DNA from: a virus | Length of the DNA: 64,000 nucleotides | Virus record (IMG/VR): IMGVR_UViG_3300023179_000001 | Span: 39,922-103,921 of that record | Strand: one strand, 5' to 3' | Shown here: in pieces, positions 43,403-64,000 of the stretch | Position numbering within the stretch: the stretch's first letter is position 1 | Layout: every line of letters starts with the position of its first letter | Notes under the pieces: model-generated | What the model saw: the letters and a program-made list of their open reading frames with translations, nothing else | The model's database searches: none | What the model was told of the DNA's origin: nothing | Translations under genes and position numbers: made by a program

Positions 43403-44449
43403 ATGAGAGATCGAAAGCGTTTAACCTGTAAGATTTGTGCCTACAAGTCAGATAATCTAGTACCACACATAGAATCAAAGCATCAGGACTTGGGCGAAGA
43501 TGCTCTAGTAGCCTACATGGAAAAATATGAGTGTGATGTTGTTGATGTCGTTGTCGAATCGCACGAAGGGCCAGAAATTTGTGGTATTCCACTAGCACTC
43601 GGCCACTTGCCAGAATTATCTCCTCAACTAGATTCTGCTTATAAGTTCGAACTAGCCATTCATGGCGACATTGTAATGGATATTATTGAAAACAAGCCTG
43701 TAATGATTACTGGTCACGCTGGTACAGGCAAATCAACCACGATTGAACAAATCGCAGCCAGAACAAAGCAGGGCGTTATTCGAGTTGAGTGTAATCACGA
43801 TATGTTGAGCAGCGACCTGATGGGAAACTGGAAGGTTTCTAACGGCTCGATGGAATGGGTTTACGGGCCACTCCCAAAAGCAATGAAAGAAGGGTTGTGG
43901 TTGATCTTGGACGAAATCGACTTTGCTCCAGCAGGGGTTTTGTCCCTACTTAATGAAGTTCTCGAACCAAACGGGAATCTCAAAATCAAAGAAAACGGAT
44001 ACGAGCAAATCACGCCACACAAAAACTTTAGGATCTTTGCTACTGCGAATACCGCAGGTGCAATGCAGAATTTCCGTCATCTGTACCAAGGTACAAATAT
44101 CATGAATGAGGCTTTCTTGGATCGGTGGAGAATTCATGTTTACGACTACCCCACAGAAGATCGTGAAGTTCAGATTTTATTGTCTAAAACCAATCACAGA
44201 GAGTCTTTGGCTAGATCGATTGTTAGAGTAGCAAATCTGATTAGAGATGCTTTTAAGAATGAAGAAATTTCAACCACGATGGGAGTTAGGAGAGTTTTGG
44301 ATTGGGCAGATCTAATGATTCGCCACAACGATCCACTGCGAGCCGCTCAAATTGCAATCTTTTCAAAAGTACCCAAAGAAGATGCCGAGGTAATCAGGGG
44401 AATCATTCAAAGAACTGTAGCTCCTGAATCGACAAGGGGGACTTTATGA
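43403..44449 (+). CDS. CobS-like AAA+ (MoxR-type) ATPase with N-terminal zinc finger
   Basis: 348 residues. N-terminal C2H2-like finger (Cys 9, Cys 12, His 22, His 27). AAA+ core: Walker A GHAGTGKST (104-112), Walker B LWLILDEID (166-174), sensor 1 FRIFATANT, arginine finger region AFLDRWRIHVYDYP. Named after the CobS cobalt-chelatase subunit, but phage versions are not linked to cobalamin genes. MoxR-type ATPases usually work with a VWA protein to remodel or mature a target. It overlaps the VWA gene by 4 nt. Confidence 0.88.
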   Translation: MRDRKRLTCKICAYKSDNLVPHIESKHQDLGEDALVAYMEKYECDVVDVVVESHEGPEICGIPLALGHLPELSPQLDSAYKFELAIHGDIVMDIIENKPVMITGHAGTGKSTTIEQIAARTKQGVIRVECNHDMLSSDLMGNWKVSNGSMEWVYGPLPKAMKEGLWLILDEIDFAPAGVLSLLNEVLEPNGNLKIKENGYEQITPHKNFRIFATANTAGAMQNFRHLYQGTNIMNEAFLDRWRIHVYDYPTEDREVQILLSKTNHRESLARSIVRVANLIRDAFKNEEISTTMGVRRVLDWADLMIRHNDPLRAAQIAIFSKVPKEDAEVIRGIIQRTVAPESTRGTL

Positions 44450-46131
44450 AAAACTCACTTGAATCATCACTTGAAAAGATTGGTCGTATTTTAGCCAGAC
44501 AATACAACATCGAAGTTGTGTTTGAAGGCAATCAAGCTAAAACAGATGGTAAAAAAATCTATCTACCCAACTTTCCAGAAATTTCAGAAGAATTAGGTGC
44601 AGACCTGAACGCATATCTTGATCATGAAGTAGCTCACTGCAAATTTACAAACTTCCCTGTAATGAAGGGCTGTAAAACAGGGTTTCACGCAAATCTTCTC
44701 AATGCTACCGAAGATGTCAGAATCGAAGCAGAGATGATCAAGGAATATCCTGGTACAAAGTTTCACTTAGACGCTTTGAATTCTAAACTAACCAAAAACA
44801 TTTATAAGGCTAGGGCTAAGGGACATTACCCATACCCTGTCAGAATCATCTTTGATGTCCGAGACATCATGTTGGGCAAAACACCAGTGGTTGAAGATGA
44901 TATTAAGCAATACATTGATCTGATTAGAGAAGACGCTGTAAGTCTTAGAGATTGCAAATCAACCGAAGATATTTTTCGGGTTACAGAAATAATCTGCAAC
45001 AAAATTAGCGGTGCGGTTGAAAAGCAAAAGCAGCAACAAAAGCCAGAACAGTCAGAGCCAGAATCATCTGAACCAAAAAAGAATAAGTCCAAGCTAAGTC
45101 AATCAGAGCAGGATTCAATGGTTAGAGACTCTGTGCAGTCCAGCAAAGACAAGTTTGATAGATATACGATGGATGTTCACTCAATGATCGACAAATCCAT
45201 TAAGCAGAGCGAAAAAGAAAACAAACAAAAATACAAACTTGGGTTTAGCAAAAAACCATACGTCCCTGCCACAACTCGGTTTGACAAAATTACAGACCAC
45301 TCTGGCAAAGGGAATCAGTCAGAATACCTAGAATTAAAAAAACAAATTTCCAAGATTGTATCTCCCATACGCAATGCGTTTGAGAAATCACTCAAGGTAA
45401 AAGAAAACTCTAGATGGCATCTTGAAAAAGAACGTGGCTCAGTATCAGGACGAACCATGTATCGCACTTTCACAGATCCTTCTTACAATAGAATTTTCAA
45501 AAGCCTAACAAAGCAAGAAACCAAAGATGTGGCAGTATCAATCCTTATTGATCTTAGCTTGTCTATGAAGGGTGACAAATTGCAAATTGCCAAACAAGCC
45601 GCAATAGCCATGGGTGAAGCCCTGAAGTCACTCGACATACAGTTTGAGGTTTTAGGGTTTAGTTCAGTCTACAATGCTGAATTGCATAGGCTCTCAAAGC
45701 TAAACCGATGGTCTTGGAAATCTTTTGCCAGAAGCACAGAAGCCTTAGACCTTCGTGTTTTTAAAAGCTTTGAGACAACATCGATGAACGGGATTACGAA
45801 CCTTCGCACAGGCCAAGAGAATCCAGACGGTGAGTGCCTAGCTTGGGCAGCAAAGCGTTTGACCACCAGAAAAGAAAAAAGAAAAATTTTAATCGTATTA
45901 AGCGATGGTCAACCGTACACTCAGGACACTGATACTGGCATCTTGTGTAATGACCTGAAAAATCGTATAGCTAAAATAAAGAAGTCAGGCATAGAGTGTG
46001 TTGGGATTGGTATTCTAACAGACTATGTTAGAGAGTATTATCCAGAGCACGTTATAATCTCAAACTTAGAAGAGCTACCACAACAAGCTCTTAAAAAGAT
46101 TACTACGATGCTTTTGAGGGCAGTGGCATGA
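44446..46131 (+). CDS. CobT-like VWA-domain protein with HExxH motif
   Basis: 561 residues. Near the N-terminus HEVAH (60-64) is followed by NATED (86-90), a spacing compatible with a gluzincin-type zinc site. A polar Gln/Glu/Ser/Lys linker spans about 190-265. The C-terminal VWA domain has the MIDAS motif DLSLS (369-373) in VAVSILIDLSLSMKGDKLQI, plus later Thr/Asp sites (NGITNLRTG, LSDGQP). No chelatase partners (CobN) are present. With the AAA+ protein it probably forms a remodelling or metalloprotease machine; the target is unknown. Confidence 0.8.
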   Translation: MKNSLESSLEKIGRILARQYNIEVVFEGNQAKTDGKKIYLPNFPEISEELGADLNAYLDHEVAHCKFTNFPVMKGCKTGFHANLLNATEDVRIEAEMIKEYPGTKFHLDALNSKLTKNIYKARAKGHYPYPVRIIFDVRDIMLGKTPVVEDDIKQYIDLIREDAVSLRDCKSTEDIFRVTEIICNKISGAVEKQKQQQKPEQSEPESSEPKKNKSKLSQSEQDSMVRDSVQSSKDKFDRYTMDVHSMIDKSIKQSEKENKQKYKLGFSKKPYVPATTRFDKITDHSGKGNQSEYLELKKQISKIVSPIRNAFEKSLKVKENSRWHLEKERGSVSGRTMYRTFTDPSYNRIFKSLTKQETKDVAVSILIDLSLSMKGDKLQIAKQAAIAMGEALKSLDIQFEVLGFSSVYNAELHRLSKLNRWSWKSFARSTEALDLRVFKSFETTSMNGITNLRTGQENPDGECLAWAAKRLTTRKEKRKILIVLSDGQPYTQDTDTGILCNDLKNRIAKIKKSGIECVGIGILTDYVREYYPEHVIISNLEELPQQALKKITTMLLRAVA

Positions 46132-49229: not shown

Positions 49230-49961
49230 ATGTCTAAAGATAAAGATCATCGGCCATCCGAGTCTGAACCTGGACACCTATTTATGTGGCATCCACAGGC
49301 GATTATTTCTCCTGATCGTATGCAGACCAGAGGAATATATGCCAATGGATACCCAGAAGGTGCTGTAATCCATTATACTGCTGGCCCGTATAAAAATGGG
49401 GTCAAAGATGCGTTAGATTGCATCAAAGAAGGAATTGCGAATGAATATACCTATCTATGCATCGCATCAGATGGAACCATTGTTCAAGCGCACCCATTGA
49501 ATGAGTGGGGATACCACGCTGGCAAATCCTACTGGGCAGGACTTGGAAGCTCACTTTCATCTAAACTCATTGGTATTGAAATCTGTTCTGCTGGAAAAGT
49601 AGAACTAGAGAACAGTGTTTGCAAATCTTGGTGGGGAGAAGTCATACCCAATGATCAGGTTAGGTTTGTAGATGAAACTCATGGATGTGAAAAGGGTTTT
49701 TACCATGCCTTCACCCTAGAGCAAGAAAGATCCCTCTGGGCACTACTCGTTTGGCTCTATGAAAATGATCCACAAAGAAGATTCAGATTTGAAAATGTAT
49801 TGGGACATCACGAGATTGCTGGCACTACGACTACCACAAAGACCAGAAGGAAATTTGATCCAGGTGGATCGCTATCACTTTCTATGGAAATGTTTAGAAA
49901 TGGGCTTCTATTCCATTCAGAAGAAAACCTTGCAGATGGGTTTAACGGCTACGAGAATTAG
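49230..49961 (+). CDS. N-acetylmuramoyl-L-alanine amidase endolysin (Amidase_2)
   Basis: 243 residues. GAVIHYTAGPYKNGVKDALD (zinc His near 49), YLCIASDGTIVQAHPLNEWG, KLIGIEICSAG (catalytic-region Glu), and a late NVLGHHEIAG ... KFDPGG (second zinc His). This is the peptidoglycan amidase that frees progeny. No signal peptide, so it needs a holin. The N-terminal about 30 residues are polar without a binding domain. Its 3' end overlaps the leftward lipoprotein gene by 20 nt. Confidence 0.88.
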   Translation: MSKDKDHRPSESEPGHLFMWHPQAIISPDRMQTRGIYANGYPEGAVIHYTAGPYKNGVKDALDCIKEGIANEYTYLCIASDGTIVQAHPLNEWGYHAGKSYWAGLGSSLSSKLIGIEICSAGKVELENSVCKSWWGEVIPNDQVRFVDETHGCEKGFYHAFTLEQERSLWALLVWLYENDPQRRFRFENVLGHHEIAGTTTTTKTRRKFDPGGSLSLSMEMFRNGLLFHSEENLADGFNGYEN

Positions 49962-50358
49962 GTTTTTCAACCTTCTGCAATCTATTAAAGACCTGCTTAA
50001 TCTTTTCAAATTCACACTTGGAGTTTTCATTACAAAGCTGCTGGATTGCTATTTTCATTCTGGTGAAATCTTCTGAGGATGTGCATAATGATGGGCCTTT
50101 GGCCTCATTGATTGGGGTTTTTGGATCATCCACTTGAGCTTCAAGGAATCTTATAAACTCCTTATTATTCATGTTCCTATTTCTATCTGAAACTGCATTT
50201 TGGCAAATAGCTCCATAAATGCCTGTGGAAGCGCACCACTCAATATCTGGAATCACAACCTTGGTGGAACACCCATTAAGGCAAAGAATACCGAACCAAG
50301 AAAGCCATCCTACGCTTTGCAAGATCGAGTGCTTTTTGTTTTTCTTCTTCACTGGCAT
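49942..50358 (-). CDS. Lipoprotein, candidate outer-membrane spanin
   Basis: 138 residues. Basic N-terminus, hydrophobic SVGWLSWFGILCLNGC with lipobox LNGC (Cys 30), mature part with four further Cys pairs (EWCASTGIYGAICQNA, LCNENSKCEFEKI) and helices. The gene begins 83 nt inside the preceding membrane-protein gene in another frame, the embedded arrangement typical of Rz/Rz1. It is longer than classic o-spanins and lacks a Pro-rich stretch, so spanin function is inferred from context. Confidence 0.55.
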   Translation of the reverse strand: MPVKKKNKKHSILQSVGWLSWFGILCLNGCSTKVVIPDIEWCASTGIYGAICQNAVSDRNRNMNNKEFIRFLEAQVDDPKTPINEAKGPSLCTSSEDFTRMKIAIQQLCNENSKCEFEKIKQVFNRLQKVEKPNSRSR

Positions 50359-50614
50359 TTTCCTGTTCTAGTTTTTTTAAATTTTCTAATTCTTTATCAA
50401 AGGCTTTTTGATTGGTTTCACTGATGAATTCAAACTTGTAAAAAGTAATTAGTTCTTTTTGATAATCGTAAAACATCTTAGCAAATCTGGTGATTAGTTC
50501 TGTAGTTAAAATCCCTAGCGGCCCGAATCCGAGAATAGGAACCGCTAGGAATAAACGTCTAATCACTTCTTTGACGATGACATCAAAGACTAGAGATTTG
50601 AATATATCTTCCAC
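50276..50614 (-). CDS. Membrane coiled-coil protein, candidate inner-membrane spanin partner
   Basis: 112 residues. Hydrophobic FLAVPILGFGPLGILTTELI (about 22-41), then a charged helix (FDKELENLKKLEQENASEEE). It overlaps the lipoprotein gene in another frame and shares one nucleotide with the holin-like gene stop. Inner-membrane spanins have one N-terminal helix and a periplasmic coiled coil, which fits broadly; alternative is another lysis accessory. Confidence 0.5.
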   Translation of the reverse strand: MEDIFKSLVFDVIVKEVIRRLFLAVPILGFGPLGILTTELITRFAKMFYDYQKELITFYKFEFISETNQKAFDKELENLKKLEQENASEEEKQKALDLAKRRMAFLVRYSLP

Positions 50615-51057
50615 TATTTCTTAGCTTTTTTCTTAGGCTTCACTGCTTGAAGTGCAGGAGCAGGTGCAGGCTGTGGCATCAACTCTTTGTAAAGAGAGTG
50701 CAAGAACACCTGAATTGCTGCAAGAGTTGATGAGTGAGCCAAGGCAGAGCCCCAGCTAATTCCTTCTGCTCTTAATGCAGCAACACCACCCACTAGAGAC
50801 AAAAAGCTGACTGCGAGTAGTCGCCATTTACCAGTTTTTTCACCAATGATTTTCACAACTGCTGGTGTTCTTAGTAGAAGCATTACAGCTTGTACTGCGA
50901 CACCAACCACTGCGAGAAGTCCCAGTTCGCCTTTAGTTAGATCAACAATGATTTTTCCCCATTCTTCTGGAGTAGGAGGAAGCACATCTGCCACTTCCGC
51001 TAGGGCAACAACCGAAGTCCCAAGCAATAGAGTTAGAAATAGTTTAGTTTTAGTCAT
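50614..51057 (-). CDS. Holin-like membrane protein
   Basis: 147 residues from ATG 51057 (AGGGGG upstream; ATG 51063 adjacent). Signal-like TKLFLTLLLGTSVVALAEVA, then GLLAVVGVAVQAVMLLLRT and LLAVSFLSLVGGVAAL as helices, another weak one (AIQVFLHSLY), Pro/Ala linker and a KPKKKAKK tail. Position beside spanin candidates and endolysin suggests a holin, without direct proof. Confidence 0.55.
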   Translation of the reverse strand: MTKTKLFLTLLLGTSVVALAEVADVLPPTPEEWGKIIVDLTKGELGLLAVVGVAVQAVMLLLRTPAVVKIIGEKTGKWRLLAVSFLSLVGGVAALRAEGISWGSALAHSSTLAAIQVFLHSLYKELMPQPAPAPALQAVKPKKKAKK

Positions 51058-51067
51058 TATCATCCCC

Positions 51068-60571: not shown

Positions 60572-61549
60572 TCAACCCCCTTTAAATTCTACCAAATAAT
60601 AATCCACTGTCTTTAAAAGATTTTCATGCAAGTTTGGAGAAGGTTTCCATCCTAACGCCTTGAGTTTATCGCAGTTGATCGCATAACGTTTATCATCAGT
60701 GGGCCTATCGTTCGTAAACTCAATATCTAATTCTAAACCCTTATGTCTTTCTTTCATCGCATCAAAAACAGAATTGATGATACTCAGGTTTGTTTTTTCA
60801 CACTCACCGCCAATGCAATACTTTTCCCCTGTCACGCCACTGTGCGACAATAAGTACAGTGCTTCACAGTGATCATCCACCCAGAGCCAATCTCTGATGT
60901 TTTGTCCATTTCCGTAGACTCTAACTGGTTTTTTTCTTCTTAATCTCTGGATTGTTGCAGGAATGAGTTTTTCAAAGTGTTGATTAGGTCCAAAGTTATT
61001 AGAGCAATTAGTTACAATCGCAGGTACTCCATAGGTGTGAAAATACGATTGAACAATGTGATCGCTCCCAGCTTTTGTAGCAGAATAGGGACTTCGTGGT
61101 TTTACATTGGTTAGCTCAGAGAATGGATCCTCATCCATTTCCAGTTCTCCATAAACTTCATCTGTAGAAACGTGGATAAACCTTTTTGACTTATCTCCCT
61201 GCCAGAGTTGTCTAAACTCTTCTATTAAGTGAAAGGTTCCAAGTACATTAGTTGTAACAAAATCCTTTGGCCCAGCAATACTTCTGCAAACATGAGATTC
61301 AGCGGCTAAATGAAAAATAGCATCTGGCTTATGCTTCTGCATGGCCCTAGCCACTGCGAGATGATCACGAATATCTATAATCTCTTCTTGATAATTAATT
61401 TTATTATGGAATGCCCATTTTCTTAGAAAGGATGGATTTGCAGCGTAGGTTAGGGAATCGACTAGAACAACTTCTTTCCCCAGTTCTAAAAGATATTTAC
61501 AAAGATTGGAGCCAATAAAGCCGTAGCCCCCAGTGACCATGTACTTCAT
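60572..61549 (-). CDS. rfbB: dTDP-glucose 4,6-dehydratase (RmlB)
   Basis: 325 residues from ATG 61549 (GGGGG about 5 nt upstream). TGGYGFIGSNLC NAD site (5-16), HLAAESHVCRSIAGP, HVSTDEVYGELE (catalytic Thr-Asp-Glu), SPYSATKAGSDH (YxxxK), NNFGPNQHFEKLIP and RDWLWVDDHCEAL. First step from dTDP-glucose to 4-keto-6-deoxy sugars. A large inverted repeat (61561-61636) sits directly before its ribosome site and may control translation. Confidence 0.92.
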   Translation of the reverse strand: MKYMVTGGYGFIGSNLCKYLLELGKEVVLVDSLTYAANPSFLRKWAFHNKINYQEEIIDIRDHLAVARAMQKHKPDAIFHLAAESHVCRSIAGPKDFVTTNVLGTFHLIEEFRQLWQGDKSKRFIHVSTDEVYGELEMDEDPFSELTNVKPRSPYSATKAGSDHIVQSYFHTYGVPAIVTNCSNNFGPNQHFEKLIPATIQRLRRKKPVRVYGNGQNIRDWLWVDDHCEALYLLSHSGVTGEKYCIGGECEKTNLSIINSVFDAMKERHKGLELDIEFTNDRPTDDKRYAINCDKLKALGWKPSPNLHENLLKTVDYYLVEFKGG

Positions 61550-61560
61550 TGAATCCCCCA

Positions 61561-61636
61561 ATCCAATCGTCTTTTGAAACGATTTACTCAAATATTTATA
61601 AATTTTAATCTGAAACGCTTCAAGAAACGATTGGAT
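61561..61636 (-). repeat. Inverted repeat in rmlB leader
   Basis: Arms 61561-61586 and 61611-61636 pair in 21 of 26 positions, with a perfect outer 10 bp (ATCCAATCGT / ACGATTGGAT), around a 24-nt AT-rich loop. In the mRNA of the minus strand the stem ends about 12 nt before the rmlB start, next to the ribosome site. Confidence 0.65.
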
Positions 61637-61689: not shown

Positions 61690-61809
61690 TTAGTGATGCT
61701 TGCAGTGATGATCACAGTGATGTTTGCAGTGATGATCACAGTGATGTCCAACCGAAGAACATCCGGCAATAAAAAATACCAAAGAGAATGCTAATAACAA
61801 CTTTTTCAT
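61690..61809 (-). CDS. 39-aa His/Cys-repeat lipoprotein, probable metal binder
   Basis: Signal peptide MKKLLLAFSLVFFIAGC with lipobox IAGC, so Cys 17 should be lipidated and the mature peptide just 23 residues: CSSVG followed by HHCDHHCKHHCDHHCKHH. Ten His and four further Cys, spaced as (H-H-C-[DK]) repeats, make a very strong predicted zinc, copper or nickel ligand. At DNA level it is a 24-bp tandem repeat (61693-61716, 61717-61740). GGAG is about 7 nt before the ATG. No relative recalled. Neighbours are fibre, tail-type and RmlB genes. Confidence 0.75.
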   Translation of the reverse strand: MKKLLLAFSLVFFIAGCSSVGHHCDHHCKHHCDHHCKHH

Positions 61810-61827
61810 ATACTTCTCCATTGTTAA

Positions 61828-62205
61828 TTATTCTTCTAAGATGCCGTCCAAGGCCATTACTTGTTCGGCACTTATTTTTATGTTTTCACCAAGATCCAGT
61901 ATCTTTATTTTTGGAACTTCCACTTCTACTTGCAATAAAGATTCTAATTCTTTTAAAAAATCACTTGTTTTTTCTTTGTCTACCGAATAAATCCCATCTG
62001 CGTTTTTACAAATCTCTCCTTTTTTGTTTTTCTTAGCAAACTTTTTAACAAGCTCTTGTCTCAGTTCTTCAAACTTCTTTTGCTCATCTTGAACAATTGA
62101 AGTTATTTTTTTTAACTTATAAGCAGCCAAAACTGGCAACTCAGCTTTTAATAATTTTTCAAATGAATTAGAAAATTTTGAATTTACTATCGAAGATAAT
62201 TTCAT
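61828..62205 (-). CDS. Conserved phage protein, DUF1617-like
   Basis: 125 residues. MKLSSIVNSKFSNSFEKLLK, ELPVLAAYKLKKITSIVQDE and EELRQELVKKFAKKNKKGEI, ending KISAEQVMALDGILEE. This order resembles a small helical protein family encoded in tail regions of many phages (DUF1617-like), function unknown. Its ATG follows GGAGAATTTTT. It may help tail assembly. Confidence 0.6.
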   Translation of the reverse strand: MKLSSIVNSKFSNSFEKLLKAELPVLAAYKLKKITSIVQDEQKKFEELRQELVKKFAKKNKKGEICKNADGIYSVDKEKTSDFLKELESLLQVEVEVPKIKILDLGENIKISAEQVMALDGILEE

Positions 62206-62246: not shown

Positions 62247-62401
62247 TCATTCTGATGATTTTTTCTATTCTATTGAGAGAAAAACTGATTTGCTATTACT
62301 TAGTTTTTATTATTTCTAAAAACTTAAACACTCCATAAATAAAAACAAAAAAAGTTACTATTCCGCTTACATGGTAGGTCATTCTGATGATTTTTTCTAT
62401 T
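62247..62401. repeat. 23-bp perfect direct repeat
   Basis: TCATTCTGATGATTTTTTCT plus ATT occurs at 62247-62269 and 62379-62401. The right copy lies in the N-terminus of the membrane micropeptide gene; the left copy is intergenic. Could reflect a past duplication or a recombination junction. Confidence 0.7.
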
Positions 62402-62406
62402 TCCAT
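62296..62406 (-). CDS. 36-aa membrane micropeptide
   Basis: MEIEKIIRMTYHVSGIVTFF then VFIYGVFKFLEIIKTK: one transmembrane helix with basic ends. The GGGAGG in front belongs to the terminator stem, so translation may depend on readthrough. Function unknown. Confidence 0.45.
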   Translation of the reverse strand: MEIEKIIRMTYHVSGIVTFFVFIYGVFKFLEIIKTK

Positions 62407-62450: not shown

Positions 62451-64000
62451 TTAGTGAGCTAACCACATTGACAACGTGCTGTCCCAAATTAATTGGACAG
62501 ATTCGTAAGCAACCCCAAGGTTAAAACCACTGGCACCGTCAATGGTTTGCCCTGCGTTTGCAACGATGTTGATTGAACCCGCTCCAGATCCGTCTTTAAT
62601 AACGTGGAACTGACCGTCAACTGGACTAGCAGGCATAGTATAGACCACACCCGAGGCAGTTGCGATTTGATACGGCTCGCTGTTTGCGATTGTATAACTA
62701 GAGCTCTTTCTTACTTTTCGATAGGAAAGACCTCGTCCTAATACAGCGTGGTCGGTTTGTAACGCAAGTGGCAGCCTCTCAGTAGCATCACTTGAATTCC
62801 TTCGTAAATCAAACTTGATTTGAGTTTGATTGTTTGAAGAAGGATCGGTAAAGTTCGCAAAAACCATTTTTGCGTACCCTCGGCTCTCGCCAGCATCGGC
62901 TGGTCTTGATAGCGACCAGTCCACTGGTACTTCAGCGTTTTTCAGGAAATTTACTTTGTCGCCAAAGATTTCCATTACATCCACTCTTGAAGTTCCACCA
63001 GCAGCGGTAGCTTGGAATACCATCTTAGTTCCAGCAGCACCAGCACTGTGCTGTTCAACTGCGTTAGCTACGATTCTTGCCCGACCGCTGTTGTATGTGC
63101 TACCGTCCCATGCTCGGAATCCCAACTGCCCAACCATATCCCCGCTTGCTAAGTAGTCTGGAGTTCCAGCATTATCTCTTGATTTCTCAAGAGCAAGTAC
63201 AGGGCCGTTTCCAGCGGTATTGCTACTTAATCTTACCGAGCTTACTGGAGAAACTCCGGTGGCTCCATTTACCAAGAATGCTCTTTCAGAAGAAGACGAT
63301 GAGACAAAGCTTACTGAAGCTTTTCCATACATCTCAACTGACTTGTCACTGTTTATTTGCACCGCAGTGGCAAGCGTTGTTGAGCCGCTTGGTGTTACTT
63401 GGAATTGCATATAACCAGGAGCCGAAGTGTTAGTAAATGCATCGCTAGCTTTTACGATGATTTGCGCTGCATCTCGGAAAACTCCAGTATCTCCCATGCC
63501 GCCCCATGTGAAGCGACCAATAGAGTCGCCCGTTTGAACAGCAGAAGGACTTGCAAGGGTCCCTCTTGATTTTCTAAAAGAAAACCGATGCTGTGCGGAT
63601 GCGGTTTCTGAATATCTAACTCCAGCGATTCTTGGATCTGTGGTTGCGTCTGAATCTGCCACAACCCATAGGCTGTTATTATTATTTCCAGACATTTGGT
63701 CAACACTACCACCGCCAATTTGCAATCCGTAAGCAAGATATTCCTTATTTGGTCTATTTACTCCGACTGCACCGATATTCTTAGATGCGTCTGTTCCAAA
63801 AAGTAAATGCTCATTAATAGCTACGTTTTCAAGGTTGCTTAGAGATCTTGCAGCTTTGCCAGAAATCGTTGTCTCAAGACCTGTGATATCTGCTTCTGCG
63901 ACATCCATTCGACCTTCAAGACCTGTGATATCTGCTTCTGCGACATCCATTCGACCTTCAAGACCTGTGATATCTGCTTCTGCGACATCCATTCGACCTT
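62451..64000 (-). CDS. Tail fibre with N-terminal 14-residue coiled-coil repeats (5' end cut)
   Basis: 516 residues visible; the apparent start at 63992 is just a Met inside a repeat, so the gene continues beyond the window. The N-terminal part visible repeats MDVAEADITGLEGR (two heptads) in tandem, a trimeric coiled-coil shaft. The rest is a beta-rich head domain (about 60-510) with FRKSRGTL, SPSAVQTGDSIGRFTWGGMG and ALEKSRDNAGTPDYLASGDM, ending with a beta-structured tip SINIVANAGQTIDG. Probably a side fibre or baseplate tip. Confidence 0.75.
   Translation of the reverse strand, partial: GRMDVAEADITGLEGRMDVAEADITGLEGRMDVAEADITGLETTISGKAARSLSNLENVAINEHLLFGTDASKNIGAVGVNRPNKEYLAYGLQIGGGSVDQMSGNNNNSLWVVADSDATTDPRIAGVRYSETASAQHRFSFRKSRGTLASPSAVQTGDSIGRFTWGGMGDTGVFRDAAQIIVKASDAFTNTSAPGYMQFQVTPSGSTTLATAVQINSDKSVEMYGKASVSFVSSSSSERAFLVNGATGVSPVSSVRLSSNTAGNGPVLALEKSRDNAGTPDYLASGDMVGQLGFRAWDGSTYNSGRARIVANAVEQHSAGAAGTKMVFQATAAGGTSRVDVMEIFGDKVNFLKNAEVPVDWSLSRPADAGESRGYAKMVFANFTDPSSNNQTQIKFDLRRNSSDATERLPLALQTDHAVLGRGLSYRKVRKSSSYTIANSEPYQIATASGVVYTMPASPVDGQFHVIKDGSGAGSINIVANAGQTIDGASGFNLGVAYESVQLIWDSTLSMWLAH
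63874..63999 (-). repeat. Three exact 42-bp tandem repeats inside fibre gene
   Basis: Units 63874-63915, 63916-63957 and 63958-63999 are identical and each encodes 14 residues; more copies probably lie outside. In-frame unit size allows length changes without disrupting the gene. Confidence 0.9.

Follow-up and report, generated by a model that had tools for sequence, protein, structure and literature searches.

A His/Cys-rich lipopeptide gene kept in the tail-fibre clusters of two uncultured phages, with a possible role in envelope metal capture

The gene and its genomic setting

The window analysed here is the 64 kb at the end of an uncultured virus record of 103,921 bp, and its minus strand carries, at 61690–61809, an open reading frame of 39 codons plus stop whose product reads MKKLLLAFSLVFFIAGC|SSVGHHCDHHCKHHCDHHCKHH, the bar being placed after the lipid Cys. 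A first-pass annotation had described a 39-residue gene with a ribosome site and a lipobox, and all of these elements hold up. The Shine–Dalgarno heptamer GGAGAAG (61813–61819, minus strand) lies 3 nt 5′ of the MKK start. Residues 1–16 (61762–61809) form the predicted signal peptide, which the Pfam lipid attachment site model LPAM_1 recognizes at 20.4 bits, barely exceeding its cut-off of 20, and the lipobox IAGC (61759–61770) ends in the lipid Cys codon at 61759–61761, with Ser at +2. An alternative in-frame ATG at 61821, four codons upstream of MKK, would yield a 43-aa product. MKK is the likelier start because GGAGAAG is well spaced for it, because the upstream ATG overlaps this heptamer, and because a sister phage shares both site and start.

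The mature chain (61693–61761) has, on translation, just the make-up first reported for it: 23 residues, of which ten are His and four are Cys besides the lipidated one, so that His and Cys together occupy 15 of the 23 positions (65%). In the phage's own proteins, His makes up 1.9% and Cys 1.1% of residues, against which this content has a binomial probability of ~5e-18, a figure that is indicative only, since the binomial assumes independent residues and a tandem repeat breaks that assumption. A better, empirical control comes from 2.8 Mb of loci scanned in six frames for a lipobox followed by an H/C-rich tail: only the window gene, its counterpart in the sister phage and two obvious frame artefacts were returned. 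The tail is encoded by a 24-bp tandem repeat with 12-bp half-units (61692–61747, no strand assigned), recovered by TRF and a repeat search, with 2.3 copies and 96% matches; the repeat is real, and its near-identical units fit the recent expansion proposed earlier.

The gene lies inside a tail-fibre cluster. The order in the window is a fibre-like gene truncated by the record end (62451–63998), a terminator-like hairpin, a 36-aa single-TM protein (62296–62406; 72% conserved in the sister), a 125-aa protein of PHROG 1401 just upstream of the lipopeptide (61828–62205; 77% identity), the lipopeptide itself, an RmlB-like NAD-dependent dehydratase as its downstream neighbour (60572–61591; Pfam GDP_Man_Dehyd, 78% identity), an RmlC-like gene and a 1702-aa fibre gene; all the features given coordinates here are on the minus strand. 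The 125-aa and 36-aa TM proteins form a conserved pair next to fibre genes in both phages, and in Xanthomonas phage X1 a tail fibre gene is followed by a gene for a distant relative of the 125-aa protein. A possible regulatory or terminator element, two 38-nt arms that are 74% complementary and have no spacer, lies at 61561–61636, immediately upstream of the RmlB-like gene.

The sister phage, IMGVR_UViG_3300023179_000017 (G001, 152 kb), was reached via the adjoining 125-aa gene. What it has in common with the window phage is mainly a fibre, sugar-nucleotide and lysis block (record ~87–104 kb; window 47–64 kb; G001 19–54 kb). Another relative, G002, is the one matched by the window phage's structural genes and by most of its replication genes; in G002, neither a match to the 125-aa gene nor a lipobox-plus-H/C ORF was found. 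Judged by gene content, this host-interaction block is swapped between phages by mosaic exchange, and the lipopeptide is part of it. In the window, a likely lysis set comprises an amidase on the plus strand (49230–49961, with PHROG lysis matches) and, on the minus strand (49942–51063), a lipoprotein (49942–50358), a TM/coil protein (50276–50614) and a hydrophobic holin-like protein (50614–51063); family support within the set is for the amidase only, the other roles being read from anatomy. The sister has a likely lysis set of the same make-up. Its amidase matches Pfam Amidase_2, and in both phages the lipoprotein of the set (138 aa with LNGC in the window, 113 aa with LASC in the sister) overlaps the TM/coil gene. 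Elsewhere in the window (43403–46131) stand adjacent CobS/CobT-like genes, one for an ATPase annotated as porphyrin biosynthesis and one cobaltochelatase CobT-like, as in many phages.

A second copy in the sister phage

A lipobox-ORF scan located the sister gene at L154:4759–4926 (L154 being G001:24000–43900), with the product MKKLFLALILAFAVTGC-NPMAHHECCHHEHHHCCEHHCKCEHHHCKHHHCECEHH. The GGAGAAG heptamer, its spacing and the MKK start are all identical to those of the window copy, and with an LPAM_1 score of 22.8 bits the sister also passes the cut-off, so that both copies carry a recognizable lipoprotein signal with lipobox and lipid Cys. Position +2 is Asn or Ser across the two copies. The sister mature chain is longer, at 39 residues, and holds 17 His and 10 Cys, that is, 27/39 (69%). 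Within its cluster, the gene is preceded by a terminator-like sequence and a 1053-aa fibre gene, and a 2284-aa ORF comes after it. The stretch 5′ of it (L154:4665–4745) holds, by eye, a strong terminator-like hairpin and an extended −10-like sequence, TGaTATAAT, and the gene looks as if served by its own promoter.

Frame-disrupting changes in a related phage, which the first-pass annotation had regarded as telling against the gene, were not seen: the sister keeps the frame, the start, the lipobox and the His/Cys tail despite diverged DNA. Across the 17 codons of the signal peptide and lipid Cys, ten residues are identical, with six of these ten codons differing silently, and the remaining signal-peptide changes are mostly between hydrophobic or small residues. 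The two mature regions have no 12-base word in common. Their His codons are CAT and CAC in a ratio of 5:5 in one copy and 2:15 in the other, and the 24-bp repeat of the window stands against a degenerate 36-bp array in the sister. Both tails consist of His and Cys interspersed with D, E or K, and both terminate in HH. Because no 12-base word is shared and most of the identical residues are encoded by silently different codons, what is kept is the protein and not the DNA repeat. Similarly, the closely matching His+Cys shares, maintained despite unrelated DNA words and differing repeat periods, argue that composition is under selection. Common descent of the two genes is likely, since they share N-terminus, ribosome site and gene neighbourhood, while strict homology of such low-complexity tails is beyond proof. 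Taken on its sequence, this is a real, conserved and unusual small gene with two known members.

The second copy came from a composition scan, and the viral-contig pattern scans showed no third member. A protein search with the window lipopeptide did not return the sister gene in G001, and its other negatives therefore mean little; that composition scanning alone found the second copy indicates that similarity searches overlook such genes. In IMG/VR, whose 2.9 million contigs were scanned four times with exact fixed patterns, no third lipoprotein turned up, nor was there one among the matches listed for a fixed-pattern scan of 84,980 genomes of bacteria and archaea. HHC-repeat patterns hit 24 viral and at least 117 bacterial stretches, with no short lipoprotein among the matches listed and nearly all of these low-complexity or in the wrong frame. 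HHCKHH occurred in 58 stretches and HHC[DE]HH in 94, and the sister, which is the positive control for HHCKHH, was the sole lipoprotein among them. A gapped lipobox-plus-CxHHC scan of viral contigs produced four matches, none with the motif in frame, and missed the pattern-bearing sister, so it is no valid negative; in ~760 bacterial genomes from two groups, with nearly the same set covered by two class-level searches, the gapped pattern gave three matches, all spurious on translation. In tblastn searches of phages, the window copy met only signal-peptide matches in Gordonia phages and the sister none, and blastn of both genes against phages and plasmids returned short partial matches only. 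Neither copy matched a metallothionein family in Pfam, and PDB held nothing relevant to the sister. Pfam, PHROGs, PDB, phages, plasmids, viral contigs and bacterial genomes thus together yielded no third member within the scope of these searches. No characterised phage protein was matched, in keeping with the first reading that no comparable one was known, and a literature search on phage metal-binding or His-rich lipoproteins found nothing pertinent. Close look-alikes are rare in the searched collections; His/Cys lipoproteins with other spacing may exist.

Possible roles in the infected cell

We favor, with a probability of roughly 0.55, the explanation that the gene encodes a lipid-anchored accessory peptide, about 65–70% His+Cys, that would serve as a metal chelator in the outer membrane or envelope of the infected cell and thereby alter its surface or periplasm. 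The precursor would be processed by Lgt, LspA and Lnt. Under the E. coli Lol rule, Ser or Asn at +2 leads to outer-membrane sorting, and the lipopeptide would follow that route if the rule, which may not be the host's, applies. Once anchored, the short flexible chain could bind soft transition metals (Zn, Ni, Cu or Fe) in a multivalent fashion, and of the resulting changes to the infected cell, superinfection exclusion would be the leading specific role. Metal binding as such is very plausible from the composition. Chelation also seems likelier than one folded interface, because it is the composition, not the sequence, that is kept. Nine of the Cys in the sister are non-lipid, and since this number is odd, at least one must stay unpaired within a single chain; oxidation of Cys in the periplasm may nevertheless count against the chelation reading.

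The closest biochemical analogues would be Helicobacter Hpn and the His/Cys-rich tail of HspA, which bind and sequester nickel (PMC4671568). Hpn, Hpn-2 and the HspA C-terminal extension are nickel-binding chains, likewise short and rich in His or in His and Cys, and in this composition comparable to the 15/23 and 27/39 metal-ligand residues that dominate the lipopeptides; unlike the latter, they belong to cytoplasmic cellular proteins without a lipobox, and sequence kinship is not claimed (PMC4671568). If the chelator explanation is true, a repeat peptide made of nearly nothing but metal ligands would work on a different principle from the known small phage lipoproteins, which blind receptors via folded contacts: it would capture metal at the envelope. 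Phage infection would then be linked to envelope metal homeostasis, a connection so far discussed mainly for tail-fibre iron. The gene is small, so that a single plasmid and one peptide made by synthesis would suffice for its study. More tentatively, the two copies could represent a new class of phage factors for host takeover or exclusion: metallothionein-like lipopeptides that act by chelating transition metal at the outer membrane, are selected for their His/Cys composition alone and evolve through repeat turnover.

How much of this could be superinfection exclusion of a familiar kind? Made in the infected cell, the lipopeptide might act like T5 Llp, T1/phi80 Cor and Rtp45: from a site beneath or on the outer membrane, its His/Cys tail would block the receptor that the phage itself uses, which could be a transporter for a metal or a siderophore. 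This would be the leading specific form of the explanation that we favor, not its opposite; as a claim in its own right, it is somewhat doubtful. All of these proteins are short phage-encoded outer-membrane lipoproteins, the location being predicted for the lipopeptides from Ser/Asn at +2. In T5, llp comes directly downstream of pb5, the gene for receptor binding, and its product is periplasmic (PMC9586334); llp and its kin stand next to receptor-binding or tail-tip genes (PMC9586334, PMC12685063), much as the lipopeptide genes stand beside fibre genes in both phages. Rtp45 is comparably small at ~6 kDa, with a disulfide Cys30–Cys38 (PMC12685063). However, the sequences of Llp, Cor and Rtp45 are complex and folded, with a single disulfide reported (Cys11–Cys58 in Llp), whereas the lipopeptides are His/Cys repeats of 23–39 residues. 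Compared with those proteins, the mature window chain is short; it is also of low complexity and unlikely to fold, whereas Llp and Rtp45 work via folded contacts. The one direct similarity, a weak match to Cor (PHROG 1119, E 0.034), is carried mainly by the signal peptide and does not extend to homology of the mature part, and for this reason we do not place the lipopeptide in the Cor family, although it may function as such proteins do.

Alternatively, the peptide may be an envelope metal buffer that resembles metallothionein and holds periplasmic Zn, Cu or Ni, either protecting the cell or starving envelope metalloenzymes, with receptors left untouched. The retention of an extreme His/Cys content while the sequence changes speaks for such a buffer, as does the nickel sequestration by Hpn and the HspA tail. 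Yet no metal-related gene was seen adjoining, the position in a fibre cluster would go unexplained, and the Cys may be oxidised; we regard this reading as unlikely. SmtA-type bacterial metallothioneins are small metal binders containing Cys and His; they show no Pfam match to either copy, and the lipopeptides differ from them in being, by prediction, secreted and lipidated.

Very short lipoproteins act in lysis in other phages and in colicin plasmids, a precedent for reading the product as an outer-membrane lysis lipoprotein of the o-spanin or lysis-protein type. Rz1-type o-spanins are very short phage outer-membrane lipoproteins, and Rz1 itself is proline-rich and overlaps the i-spanin gene, whereas the lipopeptide phages have a separate likely spanin-type pair. 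Since each phage has a likely lysis cassette elsewhere, complete with a lipoprotein and in the window ~11 kb from the His/Cys gene, a lysis role is improbable.

Least probable are the two remaining readings. Repeats can yield odd open frames, and a 12/24-bp tandem repeat region could be a DNA repeat or RNA element open by chance; in the sister, however, the DNA and the repeat period differ while start, ribosome site, lipobox and His/Cys content are all retained, a behaviour not expected from a DNA or RNA element, and RNA of the region folds no more stably than shuffled sequences do (z −1.0), so that we regard this as very improbable. It is just as hard to credit the peptide with a structural role as a metal binder within or close to the virion fibres, such as the fibre-chain stabilisation suggested in the first-pass annotation: the gene neighbourhood is all that favors it, together with the HxH iron sites of phage fibres such as T4 gp37 and that of Alteromonas phage R22Y (PMC11705849), whereas the signal peptide would export the product away from cytoplasmic virion assembly, and the three window fibre proteins scanned contain one HxH motif in total.

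The fibre-like gene at the record end harbors an exact 42-bp tandem repeat (window 63874–64000; GRMDVAEADITGLE), and the record break may have occurred within it.
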